NCBI GenBank assembly: GCA_025360045.1
Contig: JANYCY010000038.1
Span: forward strand, 1 to 35,357
From: Janthinobacterium sp.
Lineage (GTDB): Bacteria > Pseudomonadota > Gammaproteobacteria > Burkholderiales > Chitinibacteraceae
Length of the DNA: 35,357 nucleotides
Direction of reading: 5' to 3'
Made by a program: the position numbers and the translations under genes. Shown piece by piece: positions 149 through 35,049 of the stretch. A model generated the notes under the pieces. That model was not told where the DNA came from. It ran no database searches and worked only from the letters and a program-made list of their open reading frames with translations. Position 1 is the stretch's first letter. Each line of letters starts with the position of its first letter.

Positions 149-346
149 GTCCCCGATCTATGCCGCGAGCACGGCATGAGTTCGGCCTCTTTTTATAAGT
201 GGCGCGCTAAGTTTGGCGGTATGGACGTCTCGATGATGACGCGCATGAAAGAACTGGAGGATGAAAACAAGCGCCTTAAAAAGATGTATATCGAAGCCCA
301 AATGCAGGCTGACATCATCAAGGAGGCCATGTCAAAAAAGTGGTGA
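149..346 (+). pseudogene. IS3-family transposase OrfA remnant
   Basis: The frame reads a C-terminal OrfA segment typical of IS3-family (IS407-like group) elements: CREHGMSSASFYKWRAKFGG, then an ELEDENKRLKK coiled-coil stretch, ending MSKKW and a stop at 344-346. The N-terminal helix-turn-helix start is missing, so the gene is 5' truncated. Near its end sits the heptamer A-AAA-AAG (334-340), the classical slippery site for -1 programmed frameshifting into orfB, and the -1 frame does continue directly into OrfB homology. Bases 1-148 show no recognisable gene. Family assignment is by motif recall, not by search. Confidence 0.8.
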
Positions 347-621
347 AGCCATCTCAACGTCGCGAGATGGCTCACTGGGCCGTTGAAACCAAGTCTGTGT
401 CCATTCGTGCGGCTTGCGCTAGTTTTGCGATTAGCACAACTTGCTATCGCTATATTCGTAAGCTGGATGCAGAAAATACCCAAATCGCTGATTCATTAGT
501 CCAGCTCACGGAAACGCATCGTAACTGGGGCTTTGGCCTCTGCTTTTTGCATTTGCGCAACGTCAGGAAAAAGCACTGGAATCATAAACGGGTCTACAAT
601 CAGGCGGGACTTGACACTTAA
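340..621 (+). pseudogene. IS3-family transposase OrfB remnant (N-terminal part only)
   Basis: This continues in the -1 frame from the OrfA remnant (KKVVKPSQRREMAHWAVE...), with the OrfB N-terminal signatures SIRAACASFAISTTCYRY and HRNWGFGLCFLHLRNV followed by WNHKRVY. Homology stops at about 594; the last codons to the stop at 621 are unrelated. The whole DDE integrase core is absent, so no transposase can be made. The break coincides with the start of tniQ-derived sequence on the other strand, so one element was joined to or inserted into the other. A short diverged copy of part of this gene recurs at 6031-6085. Confidence 0.8.
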
Positions 622-2364: not shown

Positions 2365-3348
2365 ATGACTAAAGAATTTACATTTACAATTAATAGCATT
2401 AGTTTCGATGAAAACTATCTGCCTGCAGAAAATACGCGTATCACCACCAACTTTGCAAATTTAGCCAGGGGAGAGCATCGCCAAGAAAATCTGCGTAATA
2501 CCTTAAGGATGATTAATAATCGTTTCAATGAGTTGGCGCATTGGGATAACTATAAATCAGATCGTTATTCTGTAGAACTTGAAATTATTTCTGTTGAGTT
2601 AAATATTGATGCTGAAAATAGCACTAAGGGTTTGCCTTTAATTGAAATATTAAAGACGAGTATTGTTGATCATAAAACAAACGAGCGCATTGAAGGAATT
2701 GTAGGGAACAATTTTTCCTCTTATGTGCGCGATTATGATTTTAGCGTATTGCTGTTGGAACATAATAAGCAGCAAAGCCATTTTAGTACGCCAACAAATT
2801 ATGGTGAGCTGCACGGAAAACTGTTTAAAAGTTTCGTCATTTCTGATGCCTACAAAGAAAACTTTAAAAAACAGCCTGTGATTTGCTTAAGTGTTTCCAG
2901 CAGCCGGACCTATCAACGGACTGAAAACCAGCACCCTGTATTAGGCACAGAATACATCCAGGATGAATACTCGCTGACGGATGAATATTTCAAAAAGATG
3001 GGTATGCACGTTCGCTATTTCATGCCTGCAAATAGTGTAGCGCCTTTGGCATTTTATTTTTCTGGTAATTTGCTGGCCGATTATACAAATCTTGAGCTGA
3101 TTAGCACCATCAGTACCATGGGTGCATTCCAGAAAATTTACCGGCCTGAAATTTATAATGCCAATTCTGTTGCAGGAAAATTTTATCAACCCAGTTTACA
3201 GCACCAAGATTATTCATTAACCCGAATTGTTTATGATCGAGAAGAACGTAGCCGGCTAGCGGTTGAGCAAGGAAAGTTTGTTGAAGAGCATTTCATCAAG
3301 CCATACCAAGACATTCTTCTCCAATGGGCTGCTCATTGCGCTCTTTAA
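2365..3348 (+). CDS. mesX: DUF1852 protein, MesX-like partner of MesD methionine synthase
   Basis: The 327-residue soluble protein has no signal peptide or membrane segment and opens with FTFTINSISFDENY, as DUF1852 proteins do. This family is the obligate partner of the MesD core methionine synthase in aerobic bacteria such as Acinetobacter, where the pair makes methionine without methyl-folate or cobalamin and needs oxygen. Its biochemical role is unknown; generating or delivering the methyl group is the usual guess. mesD begins 27 bp downstream, so the two are almost surely co-transcribed. An AGGA lies 14 nt before the ATG, so the ribosome-binding site is weak. Codon use is visibly AT-richer than in genes beyond 6300. 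Identification relies on family recall plus the neighbour. Confidence 0.85.
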   Translation: MTKEFTFTINSISFDENYLPAENTRITTNFANLARGEHRQENLRNTLRMINNRFNELAHWDNYKSDRYSVELEIISVELNIDAENSTKGLPLIEILKTSIVDHKTNERIEGIVGNNFSSYVRDYDFSVLLLEHNKQQSHFSTPTNYGELHGKLFKSFVISDAYKENFKKQPVICLSVSSSRTYQRTENQHPVLGTEYIQDEYSLTDEYFKKMGMHVRYFMPANSVAPLAFYFSGNLLADYTNLELISTISTMGAFQKIYRPEIYNANSVAGKFYQPSLQHQDYSLTRIVYDREERSRLAVEQGKFVEEHFIKPYQDILLQWAAHCAL

Positions 3349-3375
3349 TCTAAATAAAATATCGCGGAATTGATT

Positions 3376-4404
3376 ATGAAAATACTATTACCCACTTCAA
3401 CTGCTGGCAGTTTACCCAAACCATCTTGGCTTGCAGAGCCAGAGAAAATTTGGTCTCCTTGGAAACTACAAGATCAAGAATTAACAGACGGCAAATTAGA
3501 TGCTTTACGTTTGTCTCTGCAAGAGCAATTACACGCAGGGATTGATATTGTGAGTGATGGAGAGCAAACGCGCCAACATTTTGTCACTACATTTATTGAG
3601 CATCTCAGCGGCGTTGATTTTGAAAAACGTGAAACGGTTAAAATTCGTAATCGCTACGATGCAAGCGTGCCCACCGTGGTGGGGGCAGTTGCTAGGCCCA
3701 AAGCTGTTTTTGTTGAAGATGCCAAGTTTTTACGCCAGCAAACCAAGCAGCCCATTAAATGGGCCTTGCCAGGCCCAATGACGATGATCGATACCTTGTA
3801 TGATCGCCATTATAAAAGTCGTGAAAAATTAGCTTGGGAATTCGCCAAAATTCTTAATCAGGAAGCCCGTGAATTAGAGGCTGCCGGGGTAGATATCATT
3901 CAATTTGATGAGCCTGCATTTAATGTCTTTTTTGATGAGGTGAATGATTGGGGAGTGGCTACCTTAGAAAGAGCCATTGAAGGACTTCAATGTGAAACCG
4001 CCGTGCATATTTGCTATGGCTATGGAATTAAAGCCAATACCGATTGGAAAAAAACTTTGGGATCTGAGTGGCGCCAATATGAAGCCGCTTTTCCCAAATT
4101 GCAAAAATCGAATATTGATATCGTTTCACTGGAATGTCACAACTCGCAGGTTCCCATGGATCTGATTGAATTGATTCGAGGAAAAAAAGTAATGGTGGGC
4201 GCAATTGATGTAGCAAACCATAGCATTGAAACCCCCGAAGAGGTTGCAGATACCCTGCGAAAAGCACTGCAGTTTGTCGATGCGGATAAGCTCTACCCTA
4301 GTACCAATTGTGGTATGGCCCCTTTGCCGCGCAGTGTGGCAAGAGGCAAACTCAATGCTTTAACTGCAGGTGCAGAAATTGTTCGCCAAGAATTATTAGC
4401 CTAG
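3376..4404 (+). CDS. mesD: Folate- and B12-independent core methionine synthase (MesD family)
   Basis: The protein corresponds only to the C-terminal catalytic barrel of MetE (342 aa against about 750 in MetE) and lacks the N-terminal folate-binding half. The MetE zinc/homocysteine ligands are present in order: His211 and Cys213 (AVHICYGYG), Glu253 (SLECHNS) and Cys312 (STNCGMAPLPR). It transfers a methyl group to homocysteine, but the donor for MesD proteins is not established. The ATG at 3376 is preferred over the upstream TTG because GCGGAA lies six bases before it. mesX immediately upstream and the flavin reductase downstream support the MesD subfamily over other core synthases. Confidence 0.87.
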   Translation: MKILLPTSTAGSLPKPSWLAEPEKIWSPWKLQDQELTDGKLDALRLSLQEQLHAGIDIVSDGEQTRQHFVTTFIEHLSGVDFEKRETVKIRNRYDASVPTVVGAVARPKAVFVEDAKFLRQQTKQPIKWALPGPMTMIDTLYDRHYKSREKLAWEFAKILNQEARELEAAGVDIIQFDEPAFNVFFDEVNDWGVATLERAIEGLQCETAVHICYGYGIKANTDWKKTLGSEWRQYEAAFPKLQKSNIDIVSLECHNSQVPMDLIELIRGKKVMVGAIDVANHSIETPEEVADTLRKALQFVDADKLYPSTNCGMAPLPRSVARGKLNALTAGAEIVRQELLA

Positions 4405-4563
4405 TTCTACTTAGCACAGAGCAAAACAGCAAATCGGGTCTGCCGCTATGGATTTCGAATAGAATCAATTTGACTCTTTCCTTCTCTGCTGATCTGCGCC
4501 GGGCCCTTTTTGCCCATGTCATCTTCATGTTTTAGTAATACGGTTTAATTTAGGAATGATGTA

Positions 4564-5055
4564 ATGATTGAAGCAACAGACTATAGAAGTGCAATGTCCT
4601 TATTAACGGGTGCGGTTAATGTGGTCACCACAACAGGTGTATCCGGCCGGCATGGATTCACTGCTTCTGCAGTTTGCAGTATTACGGATACACCACCGAC
4701 ATTATTGGTCTGCATGAATAAATCTGCCAGATCACACCCGCATTTTATAGCCAATAAAATTTTAACGGTGAATGTGTTAGGTGTGCATCATCAGCCTATT
4801 TCCAGCGCATTTTCATCCCCTATCAATTCAGAAGAACGTTTTCAATATGGCGATTGGACTGAATTAAAAACGGGAGCACCTGTTTTAGCAGATGCTTTGG
4901 TGAGTTTTGATTGTCAGATAGAGCAAATTCAAGAAGTGGGTACACATACTATTTTTATTTGCCCTATTGTCGCTATTGGGCAAAGCGAATATGCACAAGG
5001 GCTGGTTTATTTTAATCGTGCCTATCATCATGTGGGGCTGGCTACAGCAGCGTAA
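4564..5055 (+). CDS. Flavin reductase-like FMN-binding protein (HpaC/RutF family)
   Basis: The 163-residue protein matches the flavin reductase split-barrel family: an early TGAVNVVTT strand, GFTASAVCSITDTPPTLLVCMN (FMN-binding core), then a C-terminal YFNRAYH. Such proteins use NAD(P)H to make free reduced FMN or FAD for a partner monooxygenase. No monooxygenase lies nearby; the oxygen-requiring MesX/MesD pair is 159 bp upstream on the same strand, so feeding reduced flavin to that system is a reasonable inference. AGGA lies eight bases before the ATG. The 159-bp gap from mesD has no clear terminator. Confidence 0.85.
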   Translation: MIEATDYRSAMSLLTGAVNVVTTTGVSGRHGFTASAVCSITDTPPTLLVCMNKSARSHPHFIANKILTVNVLGVHHQPISSAFSSPINSEERFQYGDWTELKTGAPVLADALVSFDCQIEQIQEVGTHTIFICPIVAIGQSEYAQGLVYFNRAYHHVGLATAA

Positions 5056-5098
5056 ACCCGTTTATTTAACCTGCAGCACTTAATAAAGTAAGTATATC

Positions 5099-5899
5099 GT
5101 GGAATTAATCATTTTTTTAGCCATCGGTGCTATCGCTGGATTTACAGCGGGATTATTTGGCGTGGGTGGTGGAATTATCATCGTACCCATATTGTATGTG
5201 GTCTTTACGCAAATGAGTTATGGCCCTGAAGTGGTGATGCATTTAGCTTTAGGTACATCGTTGGCAACTATTATAGTCACTTCGATTAGTTCATTACTTG
5301 CGCACCATAAAAAAGGTGCCGTTATATGGCCAGTATTCAAAAATTTGGCACCAGGTTTGATCATAGGCTCTTTTTTCGGCGCGGGAATTGCCGGATTACT
5401 TGCTGGGGCACACTTGCGATTAATCATTGGTATTTTTGCGCTATGGGTTGCACGCAATATGTTTGTTGGTGCAAAAAAAATAGTCGATCAAAATAAAGCA
5501 CTTCCCTCAAGGGCTACACAAGTATTGGCAGGTACGGGGATAGGCGTGGCTTCTGCTATTTTTGGCATTGGTGGCGGCAGCTTAACCGTCCCTTATCTTA
5601 ATTTTTATGGCGTAAGCATGCAAAAAGCAGTTGGCACATCCGCTGCCTGTGGTTTACCCATAGCAATTTCGGGTGCTTTGGGATTTATGCTTTTTGGCAT
5701 CAAAGACCAAGTAAATATTAGCAATAGTATTGGCTTTGTCCATATTTATGCTTTCTTGGGAATTAGCATCATGAGTTTTTTTACCGCAAAGCTAGGCGCA
5801 AAAATAGCGCATATCTTATCCCCCGTGATGCTTAAAAAATGTTTTGCCATTATGTTATTTATTGTTGGATGTTTTTTTATTCTGAAGGGATTACTTTAA
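5099..5899 (+). CDS. TauE/SafE family sulfite/organosulfur exporter-like permease
   Basis: This 266-residue integral membrane protein has about eight hydrophobic segments and the duplicated family motif: GFTAGLFGVGGGIIIVP near the N-terminus and ASAIFGIGGGSLTVPYL in the second half. TauE/SafE (DUF81) permeases are linked to export of sulfite, sulfoacetate or related anions. It starts at a GTG (5099) 43 bp after the flavin reductase and is probably the last gene of the mesX operon. Its position suggests export of a sulfur by-product, but the substrate cannot be read from sequence. A short CGGTTTTACCG hairpin follows the stop, and the next 400 bp are gene-free. Confidence 0.85.
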   Translation: MELIIFLAIGAIAGFTAGLFGVGGGIIIVPILYVVFTQMSYGPEVVMHLALGTSLATIIVTSISSLLAHHKKGAVIWPVFKNLAPGLIIGSFFGAGIAGLLAGAHLRLIIGIFALWVARNMFVGAKKIVDQNKALPSRATQVLAGTGIGVASAIFGIGGGSLTVPYLNFYGVSMQKAVGTSAACGLPIAISGALGFMLFGIKDQVNISNSIGFVHIYAFLGISIMSFFTAKLGAKIAHILSPVMLKKCFAIMLFIVGCFFILKGLL

Positions 5900-8879: not shown

Positions 8880-9773
8880 CTAAGCCCCCGCACAAACCTC
8901 AAAAACCACGCCCCTCAGCCAGCGATGCGCAGGGTCGGCCTCCATACGCGGGTGCCATAGCATGGAGATGGTAATTTCTGGGGCGGGGAAAGGCAGGGAG
9001 AAGCGGTACATTCCAGCGCTAAGGGCTTGGGTATGGTGCTCTGGCACGGAGGCAATTAGGTCCGTAGATCGCGCGAGGGCGAGGGCTGCGGAAAAGTCGC
9101 TGACGATGGTGGTGATTGTTCGAGTAAGCCCCAAGGGCTGCAAGGCTTCGTCGATCAGCCCCCTATCCTGCCCGCGCCTTGAAACAAGAATATGTTGATT
9201 AGCGGCAAATAGAGCAGGAGTGATTTCTACTTGGCTGAGCGCGTGCCCCATGCGCACCACGCCGATAAAGTAATCCCTAAACAAGGCTCGGGTGCGCACC
9301 TCGGGGCCGGTGGTTTCGCTGATTACGCCGGTCTCTAAATCAACCGAGCCATCCCGCAGCGAGGCGCTGTCTTTGTTTAGCTTTTGCACAAAACGCAGCC
9401 GCACGCTGGGGGCTTCTGTGCTGATGCGGGCGATGAGCGCGGGGCCAAAGTTCTCTACAAAGCCGTCGCTACTTCTTAAGGTAAATGTTCTGACCAGCTG
9501 CTGAATATCGAGTTGATCGGCGGGGCGGAGCACGGCTTCTACCTCTTGCACTAACTGGCTGACGTGCTCTCGCAGCGCCAGTGCGCGCGGCGTAGGCACA
9601 AGGCCGCGCCCAGCCCTTACCAAAAGTGGATCACCCATCGTTTCCCGCAAACGAGCCAAGGCACGGCTCATTGCCGACGGGCTAAGGCCTAGTCTTTTGG
9701 CCGCTTTAGCCACACTGCCCTCGGCCAGCACGGCATCAAGGGTGATGAGTAAATTAAAGTCTGGAGTCGTCAT
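8880..9773 (-). CDS. LysR-family transcriptional regulator
   Basis: The 297-residue protein has the LysR layout: an N-terminal winged helix-turn-helix (DFNLLITLDAVLAEGSVAKAAKRLGLSPSAMSRALARLRE, about residues 5-45) followed by a substrate-binding domain with FTLRSSDGFVENFGPALIARI and a C-terminal effector fold. It is divergent from the MFS exporter at 10094, the usual arrangement in which the regulator controls the neighbouring gene and itself. The binding site should lie in 9774-10093, but a palindromic repeat occupies much of that gap and no clean T-N11-A site was singled out. No inducer can be inferred. Confidence 0.92.
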   Translation of the reverse strand: MTTPDFNLLITLDAVLAEGSVAKAAKRLGLSPSAMSRALARLRETMGDPLLVRAGRGLVPTPRALALREHVSQLVQEVEAVLRPADQLDIQQLVRTFTLRSSDGFVENFGPALIARISTEAPSVRLRFVQKLNKDSASLRDGSVDLETGVISETTGPEVRTRALFRDYFIGVVRMGHALSQVEITPALFAANQHILVSRRGQDRGLIDEALQPLGLTRTITTIVSDFSAALALARSTDLIASVPEHHTQALSAGMYRFSLPFPAPEITISMLWHPRMEADPAHRWLRGVVFEVCAGA

Positions 9774-29822: not shown

Positions 29823-31112
29823 ATGCACACACTTTCACAACTTCGCTCAGGGACACTCAAAGGCATTAAGCGACTAGATTTATCTTGTGGGCTCAGCACG
29901 TTCCCAGAAGAAATATTTTCCCTAGCTGATTCCTTAGAGATTCTGAATTTATCTGGCAATGCGCTAAGCAGCCTGCCCGATGATTTGCCACGGCTAAAGC
30001 GTTTGAAAGTGATTTTTTGCTCGGATAATCAATTCGATCATTTGCCCGAAGTGCTAGGGCGCTGTAGCAGACTCAGTATGGTGGGATTTAAAGCCAATCA
30101 AATTCAAACTGTCAGTGCAGCCGCCCTGCCATCTGAGCTACGCTGGCTCATCCTTACCGACAATCAAATCAGTCATTTACCAGATGAGCTAGGCCATTGC
30201 CATGCCTTGCAAAAGCTCATGTTGGCCGGTAATCAGCTGCAGGCTTTGCCCGAAACGCTGGCCGCCTGCCAAAATCTAGAACTGATCCGCATCTCAGCCA
30301 ACCAGCTTTTCGCCTTACCAGATTGGCTATTTAGCTTGCCTAAGCTGGCATGGCTGGCATTTGCGGGAAATCCATTTTGCCCAACGCCAATAGCCCAACA
30401 CGCGCCAGCGATTCACTGGCAAGATCTCGAAGTTGCAGAGCAGCTAGGCGAAGGTGCTTCAGGTGTGATTTACAAAGCGCTGTGGCAGCAAGAGCAGCCC
30501 AGAGCGGTTGCGCTCAAAGTATTTAAAGGCGCACTCACCAGCGATGGCCTACCGCAAAGTGAAATGGCCGCATGCATCGCAGCAGGAGAACACCCCTGTC
30601 TGATCGGAGCCATTGGCAAAGTAGATCACCATCCTGATCAAACACATGCACTTTTAATGCCATTAATCGATCAAGGATTTATGAATCTAGCCGGCCCACC
30701 CAGCTTAGATTCTTGCACCCGCGATATCTATGTTCAAAATCAGCGCTTTAGCCTGCACACCATTTTAAATATCGCCACACATATGGCAGCCGCAGCCGAG
30801 CATTTACACGCCGCTCAGATTCTGCATGGCGATTTATATGCGCATAATATTTTATTGAATACGGAAGGAAAGGCTTTATTGGGAGATTTTGGAGCGGCAT
30901 CTTTTTACGAGCCCAAATACGCACTATTACAAAATATTGAAGTCCGCGCTTTTGCTTGCCTGTTAGAAGAATTAATTAGCCGCACCGATGGCTCGTCAAT
31001 AATTTTAGATCGCTTAATCAGTTTAAAAGTGAGCTGTGCACAAAATCATTTACCAGAACGCCCACTTTTTTCAGTAATAAAACAACAATTGATGGCTATT
31101 CATTCACATTAA
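29823..31112 (+). CDS. Leucine-rich repeat protein with C-terminal Ser/Thr protein kinase domain
   Basis: The 429-residue cytosolic protein is a two-part fusion. Residues 1-190 hold about seven leucine-rich repeats (for example LEILNLSGNALSSLPDDL, LRWLILTDNQISHLPDEL, LQKLMLAGNQLQALPETL). Residues 203-425 form a kinase-like domain with glycine loop LGEGASGVIYKA, the lysine in VALKVF, the catalytic loop ILHGDLYAHNILL (His-Gly-Asp in place of HRD, with the Asn) and the metal-binding LLGDFGAAS. The key catalytic residues are present, so it is probably active. No membrane segment is seen. It follows the methyltransferase gene; the start has no clear Shine-Dalgarno. It is convergent with the HD-GYP gene, nine bases away. 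Confidence 0.88.
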   Translation: MHTLSQLRSGTLKGIKRLDLSCGLSTFPEEIFSLADSLEILNLSGNALSSLPDDLPRLKRLKVIFCSDNQFDHLPEVLGRCSRLSMVGFKANQIQTVSAAALPSELRWLILTDNQISHLPDELGHCHALQKLMLAGNQLQALPETLAACQNLELIRISANQLFALPDWLFSLPKLAWLAFAGNPFCPTPIAQHAPAIHWQDLEVAEQLGEGASGVIYKALWQQEQPRAVALKVFKGALTSDGLPQSEMAACIAAGEHPCLIGAIGKVDHHPDQTHALLMPLIDQGFMNLAGPPSLDSCTRDIYVQNQRFSLHTILNIATHMAAAAEHLHAAQILHGDLYAHNILLNTEGKALLGDFGAASFYEPKYALLQNIEVRAFACLLEELISRTDGSSIILDRLISLKVSCAQNHLPERPLFSVIKQQLMAIHSH

Positions 31113-32291: not shown

Positions 32292-34658
32292 TCAAATTGA
32301 AGATTTATTTATCCATTCAAGCGCATCATTAAATGAAAACTGATTAATAAGCCGTATTAACTCCTTACTTTTATCCCCCCATATACACTCAAATGCTGGC
32401 TGATTTTCTTCAAAAAACTCCCCAGCAGAAGCATCCCCCTCTTGTAATAAACGCTGAAGATCTTCAACTATCTTCTTTTTAGTTACACTATCCAAAACTA
32501 ATATGTTTTCCGAGGCCACAGGAGCCAACACCACATCCTGCTCCTTCGAACAAAAATAATAATTATAAATATCGTTAAGTAATTTCAACGCCTCACCATC
32601 AATGGCATTTTTCATATTTAAAATGATATTTTTCTCTTCACTTTGCCCAAGCGTAAACTCAAGGTCTGCAGAGACTTTTTGTAATGCATTCGCACCAATC
32701 GTTGCTGAAATTCCTTTTATCGTATGCGCATGTCGCTTTGCATCAATCCAATGTTCCGCACTAATAGACTCCGCCAAATTAGACTGCACCTTAGGAACTT
32801 CATCCAAAACCTTGATTAATAGTCGACGATAAAAATCTGGGTTGCCCATTGCATACTTGAGCCCCATCACCATATCTAGCCCTTCAATTACTAAAGGTAG
32901 ACCTGGTGAAGCTAAATCTTTATTCTCTACTTCTTTAATTACCGCCTTATGCCCAATATCCCTTTTGACTTCAGGCAGCCATTGAATCAACTTTTCAATT
33001 AATAAATTAGGGTCAATAGGTTTAAGTAAATGATCACTCATACCTGATTCTAAACACATGTGCTTATCTTCATTCATCGATAATGCGGTCAAAGCAATAA
33101 TCGGAATATTATTTAAAAAGTGCCCAGAGCGTATTGCCTTCGCAGCACTCCAGCCATCCATGACTGGCATTTGAATATCCATAAGAATTAAATCAAAAAC
33201 TTCTTTTTTTAAAATATCAATTGATTGCTGTCCATCACCAACGACAGTTACTTGCATTCCTGCATCAATTAATATTTCGCTAGCAACCTGCTGATTTAAT
33301 GAATTATCTTCAACCAATAAAACTCGTGATCCAGCTCGCTGAGCTAAAGCTAGCCCTTGTTTATTTTTCAATGCAACAAGAGAAACCTCTTCTACTTCCT
33401 GCTGATTTTTTCTCAAACAAACACTAAACCAAAAACAGCTACCTTTATCGACCTCGCTCAGTAAACCAATGCTGCCCCCCATTAAATTAACAAGTTGTTT
33501 AGAGATAATAAGCCCTAACCCAAGCCCACCAAACTTTCTTGTTGCAGAGGTGTCTGCTTGTGTGAACGCTTGAAATAACTGAGCCTGCTCATCATGACTA
33601 ATACCAATACCAGTATCAATAATAGAAAACTTAATCTTTACCTCTTCATTACTTTCTGATTCAAGCTCAGCAAACAACTCAACCTGCCCTTGTACCGTAA
33701 ATTTCACAGCATTTTCAATCAAGTGCAATAATATTTTTTCTAAACGCTTAGCATCCCCGATTACAGACAGAGGTAAGCTAGGCGCAATTCGTAAAAGTAA
33801 AGAGAGTCCTTTTGCCCTTGCTTCAATGCCTACACGTGCAACAACCTCTTCCAATATTTTGTGTAAATAAAAAGCTGATAACTCCAGCTTTAATTGTCCT
33901 TCTTCCATTTTAGAAAAATCAAAAATATCATTTATTATATTTAATAAATGTTCACTAGATCTTTGAATGACTTCAACGTAATTCTTTTGTCTTATATTTA
34001 GCTCTGTTTTAAGTACCAAATGAGTCATCCCAATAATCGCATTCATCGGAGTACGAATTTCATGACTAATATTTGCTAAGAAATCTCGTTTTATTTTTAG
34101 GGTCTCATCTAATATTTGTTGGATCCGATCTTGCCCTTTCATTGAATCCTGAAGTACAGAATCAACCACAATTCTTAAACAAACATTGGCTCCATCACTA
34201 CTTAGATATGGCAATAAATTTAAACGCACTTCAGCCTCAAAAGGCTCACCAACGAAAGGCTGCCAACTAAAAGAATAGCCCTCACTTAAAGCATCACAAT
34301 CACTCATAAGCGTAAAACTATCTAACTGAGCCAAAAATCGTTCTCGTTGATCGATCACAAGCAATTGCTCAACAGCAAAACCAACTAACTCAGTTTGTTG
34401 ATACGAAAATAATGTAGAAAACATCTGATTCGCCCAGACAATATTCCCTTCACCGTCAATAAGAAGCATTGCTTCTACAGAAAAGTTAAAAATACTTTTA
34501 TAGTTTGCATCAATCTCCTGCTGTTTTTGCTTACTCTTTTCTAAAGTGCGTACATGCAAATCTGCAACTTCAGCAAGAATTTGCTGAAAATCTGAAGATA
34601 TTTCCTTACGCTCCGAAAATAACTTTATTTGAGTTTGCACATTACATACTCCACTCAT
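32292..34658 (-). CDS. Cytosolic hybrid sensor histidine kinase (PAS-HisKA-HATPase-REC-HPt)
   Basis: The 788-residue protein has, in order: a coiled coil (about 15-50), a PAS domain (52-165), HisKA with the phospho-acceptor His199 in ISHEIRTPMN, HATPase_c with N (ENAVKF), G1 (DTGIGIS) and G2 (GGLGLGLII) boxes, a receiver domain with Asp494 in LMDIQMPVMDG, and an HPt domain with His645 in HAHTIKG. There is no transmembrane segment, so it senses a cytosolic signal, probably through PAS. The start is put at the ATG 34658 because GGGGGA lies just upstream; the GTG at 34673 is an alternative. It is transcribed with the HD-GYP response regulator downstream. Confidence 0.92.
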   Translation of the reverse strand: MSGVCNVQTQIKLFSERKEISSDFQQILAEVADLHVRTLEKSKQKQQEIDANYKSIFNFSVEAMLLIDGEGNIVWANQMFSTLFSYQQTELVGFAVEQLLVIDQRERFLAQLDSFTLMSDCDALSEGYSFSWQPFVGEPFEAEVRLNLLPYLSSDGANVCLRIVVDSVLQDSMKGQDRIQQILDETLKIKRDFLANISHEIRTPMNAIIGMTHLVLKTELNIRQKNYVEVIQRSSEHLLNIINDIFDFSKMEEGQLKLELSAFYLHKILEEVVARVGIEARAKGLSLLLRIAPSLPLSVIGDAKRLEKILLHLIENAVKFTVQGQVELFAELESESNEEVKIKFSIIDTGIGISHDEQAQLFQAFTQADTSATRKFGGLGLGLIISKQLVNLMGGSIGLLSEVDKGSCFWFSVCLRKNQQEVEEVSLVALKNKQGLALAQRAGSRVLLVEDNSLNQQVASEILIDAGMQVTVVGDGQQSIDILKKEVFDLILMDIQMPVMDGWSAAKAIRSGHFLNNIPIIALTALSMNEDKHMCLESGMSDHLLKPIDPNLLIEKLIQWLPEVKRDIGHKAVIKEVENKDLASPGLPLVIEGLDMVMGLKYAMGNPDFYRRLLIKVLDEVPKVQSNLAESISAEHWIDAKRHAHTIKGISATIGANALQKVSADLEFTLGQSEEKNIILNMKNAIDGEALKLLNDIYNYYFCSKEQDVVLAPVASENILVLDSVTKKKIVEDLQRLLQEGDASAGEFFEENQPAFECIWGDKSKELIRLINQFSFNDALEWINKSSI

Positions 34659-35049
34659 CAATCCCCCAATCACCGATTAGCCACAGCTTCACCTCTTGAT
34701 GGCTACGAGTAAAATTTAACATCGAAAATACAATGCCCAGCTCGATAGTAAAATTAAACAACAAATTCTCACATGAACATATGAGCATGATTAATTCTAG
34801 ATCAAAATTTTGAATAATTCTGAAATGGAGATAAACCATAAATAAAAAGCATTACCTATACTAAGGAAGAAGTAAGATTAGCAATCTAATGATTTGCTTG
34901 TATAGCGCTGACATCGAGCAGGTCGAGTTAGCCGCCCTGCCTACAAGGTTTTCCTCGCCTAGGTCGGGTGAGCGGCTTTATCGCGCAACCCAACAACAAG
35001 CTACAGAAGTAGCTCATTACGTTAAGGCTAAATTCCTTCCACCTAAAAC

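Follow-up and report, generated by a model that had tools for sequence, protein, structure and literature searches.

A mesX-mesD methionine synthase locus followed by a flavin reductase and a TauE-type permease in Janthinobacterium sp.

Introduction

MesD and MesX were named by Price et al. in 2021 (PMC7857596). Mutants and complementation showed that MesD requires MesX and aerobic conditions and needs neither MetF nor cobalamin; the aerobic requirement was shown in E. coli carrying the genes of S. koreensis, and E. coli metE and metF mutants need no more than mesX and mesD to be rescued in minimal glucose M9 (PMC7857596). The two genes often lie near a putative flavin reductase, such as ACIAD3522 or Ga0059261_2931, and the same authors predicted that MesX uses flavin and is supplied by central metabolism, giving the methyl supply as a prediction and the source of the methyl group as open (PMC7857596). 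Here we analyse contig JANYCY010000038.1 of Janthinobacterium sp. (assembly GCA_025360045.1). This stretch of 35,357 bases is the entire contig and is called the window below, and in it mesX and mesD are followed by genes for a flavin reductase and a TauE/SafE-family permease.

The closest described arrangement is that of A. baylyi MesD/MesX (ACIAD3523/ACIAD3524) with ACIAD3522, in which the mesX and mesD families are those of the window and a flavin reductase lies nearby (PMC7857596). The reductase of Acinetobacter pollinis (locus L047) belongs to the same clade as that of the window, ACIAD3522 itself lying outside the comparison. What the window has in addition is a TauE gene in the same direction, and the stretch compared around the A. 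pollinis mesXD has no TauE match. In other work, isolates with MesD tolerate N2O (PMC13059711), and ABUW_3197 and ABUW_3198 appear in a mutant fitness table (PMC12604733). No later answer on MesX biochemistry or the methyl source was found in the open-access literature, a search that took in no preprints and few subscription papers.

We read the locus, with an even chance of being right, as an aerobic MesX/MesD system, independent of B12 and methyl-folate, that has a dedicated but optional flavin reductase and, more loosely attached, an anion permease. The MesXD core and the idea of a reductase helper are already published; what is new is the occurrence of two reductase clades and the TauE association. 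The locus is mostly ordinary, and its testable transporter association makes it modestly interesting.

The mesX-mesD core

Family matches bear out the earlier assignment of this locus, made from the sequence alone, as a MesX-MesD methionine synthase, the core of which is published (PMC7857596). The first gene, mesX (2365..3348, + strand; called from its open reading frame (ORF) and Pfam), codes for a 327-amino-acid DUF1852 protein that matches PF08908 at 608.5 bits (cut-off 25) over residues 1-323 of 327, the single PF08908 match in the whole genome. MesX is the presumed oxygen-dependent partner that supplies the methyl group. The second gene, mesD (3376..4404, + strand, in an ORF running from TTG 3370), matches PF01717 at 130.1 bits (cut-off 21) and belongs to NCBIfam NF006589, 'methionine synthase', at 700.9 bits (cut-off 392). 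ATG 3376 is the more likely start, and residues are numbered here from 3370. The 344-amino-acid product is a core methionine synthase consisting of the C-terminal catalytic barrel of MetE without the N-terminal folate half. The closest solved structure by sequence is 3RPD, titled 'Methionine synthase (B12-independent)', a structure of MesD only that is matched over nearly the full length (E 1.4e-199).

H213, C215 and E255 of MesD are kept in 97/97 sequences, window included, and C314 in 96/97; S14, E65 and D180 are also present in all 97. We take H213, C215, E255 and C314 to be the zinc ligands, the zinc and homocysteine roles of residues being our assumption. E255 and C314 align with MetE motifs; the alignment slips at the H-x-C pair, which was therefore positioned by eye. 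With that pair so placed, ORFs, Pfam, NCBIfam and residue conservation confirmed the identities first read for the four genes: DUF1852, a barrel-only MesD with all zinc ligands, a flavin mononucleotide (FMN) reductase and a TauE/SafE permease.

The genome also encodes full-length MetE (contig C12) and MetH (contig C92), both over curated cut-offs, so MesXD is a third methionine synthase in this organism, probably a conditional one.

Some MesD sequences depart from the family. The mesD frame of L137 (genome G004) diverges near its 3' end and lacks C314, through a sequencing fault or decay, and three loci from the window's order (L109, L126, L132) have a divergent MesD at 410-432 bits, the other 93 loci scoring at least 631. 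A second, fragmentary mesX-mesD lies at about 7760-8659 of L133 (G142:C1:2168000-2184000), and its genome carries a complete mesX as well.

Survey of mesXD loci

PF08908 was found in 9/61 genomes, all nine inside the window's family (37 genomes), in 44/398 genomes of an even phylum sample, and in 3/289 genomes of the class of G334, two of these three being shared with the phylum sample. Once duplicates and fragments had been removed, the comparison covered the window and 96 other loci. Those removed were L136, L138 and L140 (duplicates of L002, L003 and L050), the fragmentary second copy L133, L051 with a truncated MesX, L022 and L041 on short contigs, L001 (the window itself), and L053-L089, short loci whose places were taken again at greater length. 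The flanks of some kept loci end with the contig: the right flank is below 2.5 kb in L038 and L121, and L124 is a 4.5 kb contig. One further locus, L182, was inspected separately and enters no tally.

mesD adjoins mesX in the window and in 96/96 other loci. The earlier note had proposed looking for co-occurrence of the reductase and TauE with mesXD, and the outcome is divided. A PF01613 reductase stands right behind mesD on the same strand in 40/96 loci, and in 17/96 a TauE-family gene is no more than about 4 kb from the mesX end; in the even phylum sample the figures fall to 2/43 (L122, L124) and 10/43, the latter from six genera. The strict order mesX-mesD-reductase-TauE occurs in 5/96 loci, four from the window's family (L002, L135, L137, L139) and one from another (L124). 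These counts tell against the single, obligatory four-gene pathway that had been proposed.

Two distant flavin reductases behind mesD

The reductase gene of the window (4564..5055, + strand; ORF, Pfam and NCBIfam) matches PF01613 at 125.7 bits (cut-off 27). It is RutF-like and stays outside RutF proper, at 203.3 bits against the TIGR03615 equivalog cut-off of 254.75. PF01613 is also the family of RutF, HpaC, HsaB and FerA, the reductases of two-component flavin monooxygenases; unlike in those systems, the neighbour of the reductase, MesX, matches no known oxygenase family.

Linkage to the reductase is common among the closer MesX relatives of the window and rare elsewhere within the sample: adjacency reaches 33/48 in loci found by close similarity to the window MesX and 7/48 in the other searched genomes. 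The adjacent reductases are split by a very long branch into two clades, one of 9 rows (the window, its family, Acinetobacter and L124) and one of 32 rows, which takes in two genomes from the window's family besides Achromobacter, Pseudomonas, Herbaspirillum, Burkholderia, Advenella and others. Among the three copies scanned, the best NCBIfam model was RutF for the window and L047 and HsaB for L010, all under equivalog cut-offs. G010, a MesX carrier of the window's family, has a reductase of the second type with 27% identity to that of the window. On the MesX tree (98 rows, including the window, L022 and L041 and leaving out L049, whose MesX is split over two frames), the window-type reductase label changes at least three times by starred branches, and these changes may be gains, losses or replacements. 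Within the 37 genomes of the family, a reductase of at least 83% identity occurs in five, the window's own included, and all five carry MesX; genomes lacking MesX reach 42% identity at best.

The flavin role finds its strongest new support in the two distant reductases, RutF-like and HsaB/FerA-like, behind mesXD, although co-transfer of linked genes would explain part of this pattern. Because two distant clades occupy the same place, reduced flavin should be the first addition for an in vitro assay.

A TauE-type permease near mesXD

The fourth gene (5099..5899, + strand, GTG start; ORF and PF01925) codes for a TauE/SafE-family permease, placed in PF01925 at 177.1 bits (cut-off 32.6). Export of sulfite or sulfonate by this permease is putative, as the name TauE/SafE does not give the substrate. 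All four genes lie on the + strand, as first described; the short gaps then reported hold between mesX and mesD (21 bases, or 27 to the ATG) and between reductase and TauE (43 bases), but not between mesD and the reductase (159 bases). Promoter-like matches (12, against a shuffle mean of 11.5) and terminator-like matches (6, against 5.7) show no excess over shuffles, and a predicted shared transcript of mesX, mesD, reductase and TauE is plausible.

The claim of a link between TauE and mesXD stands in part. A TauE-type gene near mesXD is partly supported as being more frequent than chance would give: 19 genomes of 2.9-5.3 Mb have 0-3 TauE-family matches each, 18 of them at least one, and chance proximity would affect about 1% of genomes or fewer, a figure that is our own estimate with no control run behind it. 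The limit of 4 kb was chosen after the data were seen. The nearby copies do not form one lineage or keep one orientation. The first clade (6 rows with the window, starred) is the window type, co-directional and downstream; the second (7 rows, starred) is divergent and upstream, in Shewanella and in genomes of family f39; a third group (3 rows, support 86/93) is convergent and downstream, and is starred only with one paralog added. The copies of L012, L039, L103 and L111 fall outside these three groups, those of L039 and L111 lying beyond 4 kb. On the TauE tree, in which long branches are flagged, the label 'adjacent', which includes two copies 5-7 kb away, changes at least five times by starred branches. 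In five of five f39 genomes, a copy nearer to the window's TauE sits elsewhere in the genome.

Two reductase clades and several TauE clades in three orientations favour a functional link that is real but optional. The main text of Price et al. never mentions TauE (PMC7857596), and the association suggests a search for an exported anionic product.

Possible roles of the linked genes

In the reading that we favour, MesX would perform an oxygen-dependent step, with the methyl donor drawn from an ordinary central metabolite. Reduced FMN for this step would come from the linked reductase, which might instead keep MesX and MesD reduced, and any host flavin reductase could stand in for it; we propose that many lineages lack a reductase at the locus because host enzymes can replace the linked one. 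More tentatively, the TauE-type permease may export an anionic by-product of MesX chemistry or of the accompanying sulfur and homocysteine flux. Expression data are consistent with a flavin role. In A. baumannii AB5075, added B12 lowers both the DUF1852 gene ABUW_3198 (log2 -8.33) and the flavin reductase ABUW_3196 (-2.52) (PMC12892962), and since the two fall together, the flavin role gains support. With the two distant clades, this upholds the earlier view of the reductase as a likely flavin helper, which is not new, having been proposed in PMC7857596.

Several results weigh against this reading. In E. coli, mesX and mesD function in the absence of their native reductase and TauE, and no reductase phenotype is named in the passages on the S. 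koreensis mutant screen (PMC7857596). The reductase is rare in the even phylum sample and missing from L182. No TauE-type gene lies within about 4 kb in 79/96 loci, and a window-type TauE is missing from G001, G010, G024 and G027, MesX carriers of the window's family in which the best match, where there is one, reaches 47% identity at most. Comparisons with Pfam, with the PDB by sequence and by fold brought up no flavoprotein related to MesX. Finally, the genes may lie together and be repressed together only because they belong to one regulon.

That last point leads to an alternative that we consider possible, if clearly less probable than the favoured reading, namely that the reductase and TauE are regulon neighbours, induced with mesXD at low B12 or methionine and serving general flavin and sulfur needs without feeding MesX. 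The complementation of E. coli without either gene (PMC7857596) fits this explanation, as does the even sample, in which 41/43 loci lack the reductase and 33/43 lack TauE. So do the LysR regulators of one cluster (at least 414 bits) found near mesXD in 16/96 loci (L011, L112 and 14 others), mostly just upstream of mesX; the two copies scanned are nearest MetR, at 226 and 223 bits (cut-off 382), which suggests that methionine and sulfur genes gather there. No LysR gene stands next to mesXD in the window, the nearest one seen being at 8880-9773 (- strand). The two distant reductase clades right behind mesD are hard to explain in this way, without a need for reduced flavin.

It is also conceivable, although we think it unlikely, that the reductase or its product keeps the zinc-thiolate site of MesD, or MesX, reduced under oxidative conditions and feeds no catalytic oxygenase. 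A thiolate enzyme exposed to oxygen might profit from such protection, and an optional reductase would suit it; MesXD, however, requires aerobic conditions and does not merely tolerate them (PMC7857596).

The earlier note had gone further, proposing that MesX uses reduced flavin and O2 to release a methyl group from a C1 organosulfur compound and that TauE exports sulfite. We regard this as very improbable. In its favour are a likeness to FMNH2-dependent sulfonate monooxygenases, which require a reductase, and the TauE-family gene at the locus; the 79 loci mentioned above have no such gene within about 4 kb. MesX is significant only for its own Pfam family. The sulfur source of M9 is sulfate. 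That mesX and mesD suffice in E. coli metE and metF mutants on this medium with glucose (PMC7857596) speaks against an organosulfur methyl donor. Sulfonate genes in A. baumannii give no clear help, as their expression points both ways: sfnG, msuE, ssuD and tauD rise as mesX falls in AB5075 with B12 (PMC12892962), whereas in work on a glutathione mutant ABUW_3197 goes down along with the taurine and sulfonate operons (PMC12914303), so the opposite course of sulfonate genes and mesX is not a general pattern.

MesX and the GNAT fold

A Pfam scan of 71 MesX sequences (alignment A1, 71 of the 98 tree rows) gave no significant family besides PF08908 and listed no GNAT family, and a sequence search found no MesX relative in the PDB. 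The MesX model shows a resemblance to GNAT acetyltransferases that is weak and uniform. The CoA motif of GNAT enzymes, R/Q-x-x-G-x-G/A, lies near the junction of strand 4 and helix 3. The window MesX has a near miss, R108-x-x-G111-x-V113, and the complete motif occurs in 6/71 MesX sequences; in the models the site lies on strand 4, outside the loop. With hhalign, MesX reached a probability of 0.2% against 15 GNAT-family proteins of its own genome, and four unrelated controls reached 0.1-0.2%; the 15 were those with a usable ORF among 20 retrieved as loci from 42 GNAT-family matches.

One could imagine, as a highly speculative and improbable scenario, that MesX is a far-diverged GNAT-like fold with a decayed R-x-x-G-x-V/G/A, then a near-invariant GNNFSSYVRDYDFS, at the former CoA site. 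Supplied with O2 and with reduced flavin by the linked reductase, MesX would take a methyl group off a common acyl or keto metabolite onto itself or a small carrier for MesD, the TauE-type permease removing an anionic by-product. If true, this would be an oxidative methyl source independent of folate, cobalamin and S-adenosylmethionine (SAM).

Genomic setting

The genome comprises 4.02 Mb in 97 contigs. The GC content of the four-gene stretch is 40-43%, against 44-58% in the remaining window except for its last 4 kb (36-40%). The four genes adjoin a TniQ gene (PF06527; 496-1464, - strand) and three 20-base direct repeats at 1504-1646, which are TTGTGTCAAACTTTTTTATT-like; this combination, immediately upstream of mesX, resembles one end of a Tn7-like or Tn402-like element. 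Because of the low GC, the adjacent TniQ gene and repeats, and the patchy distribution of MesX in the family (9/37 genomes), the mesXD locus was probably acquired horizontally.

An IS3 family transposase fragment at 340-621 (+ strand), at 28.9 bits and short of the curated cut-off of 160, overlaps the TniQ region. At 29823-31112 (+ strand), a bacterial protein combines leucine-rich repeats with a protein kinase domain (PF13855 with PF07714/PF00069). GC drops to 36-40% between 31001 and 35000, with a strongly negative GC skew, and this stretch holds a hybrid histidine kinase with an Hpt domain (32292-34673, - strand).

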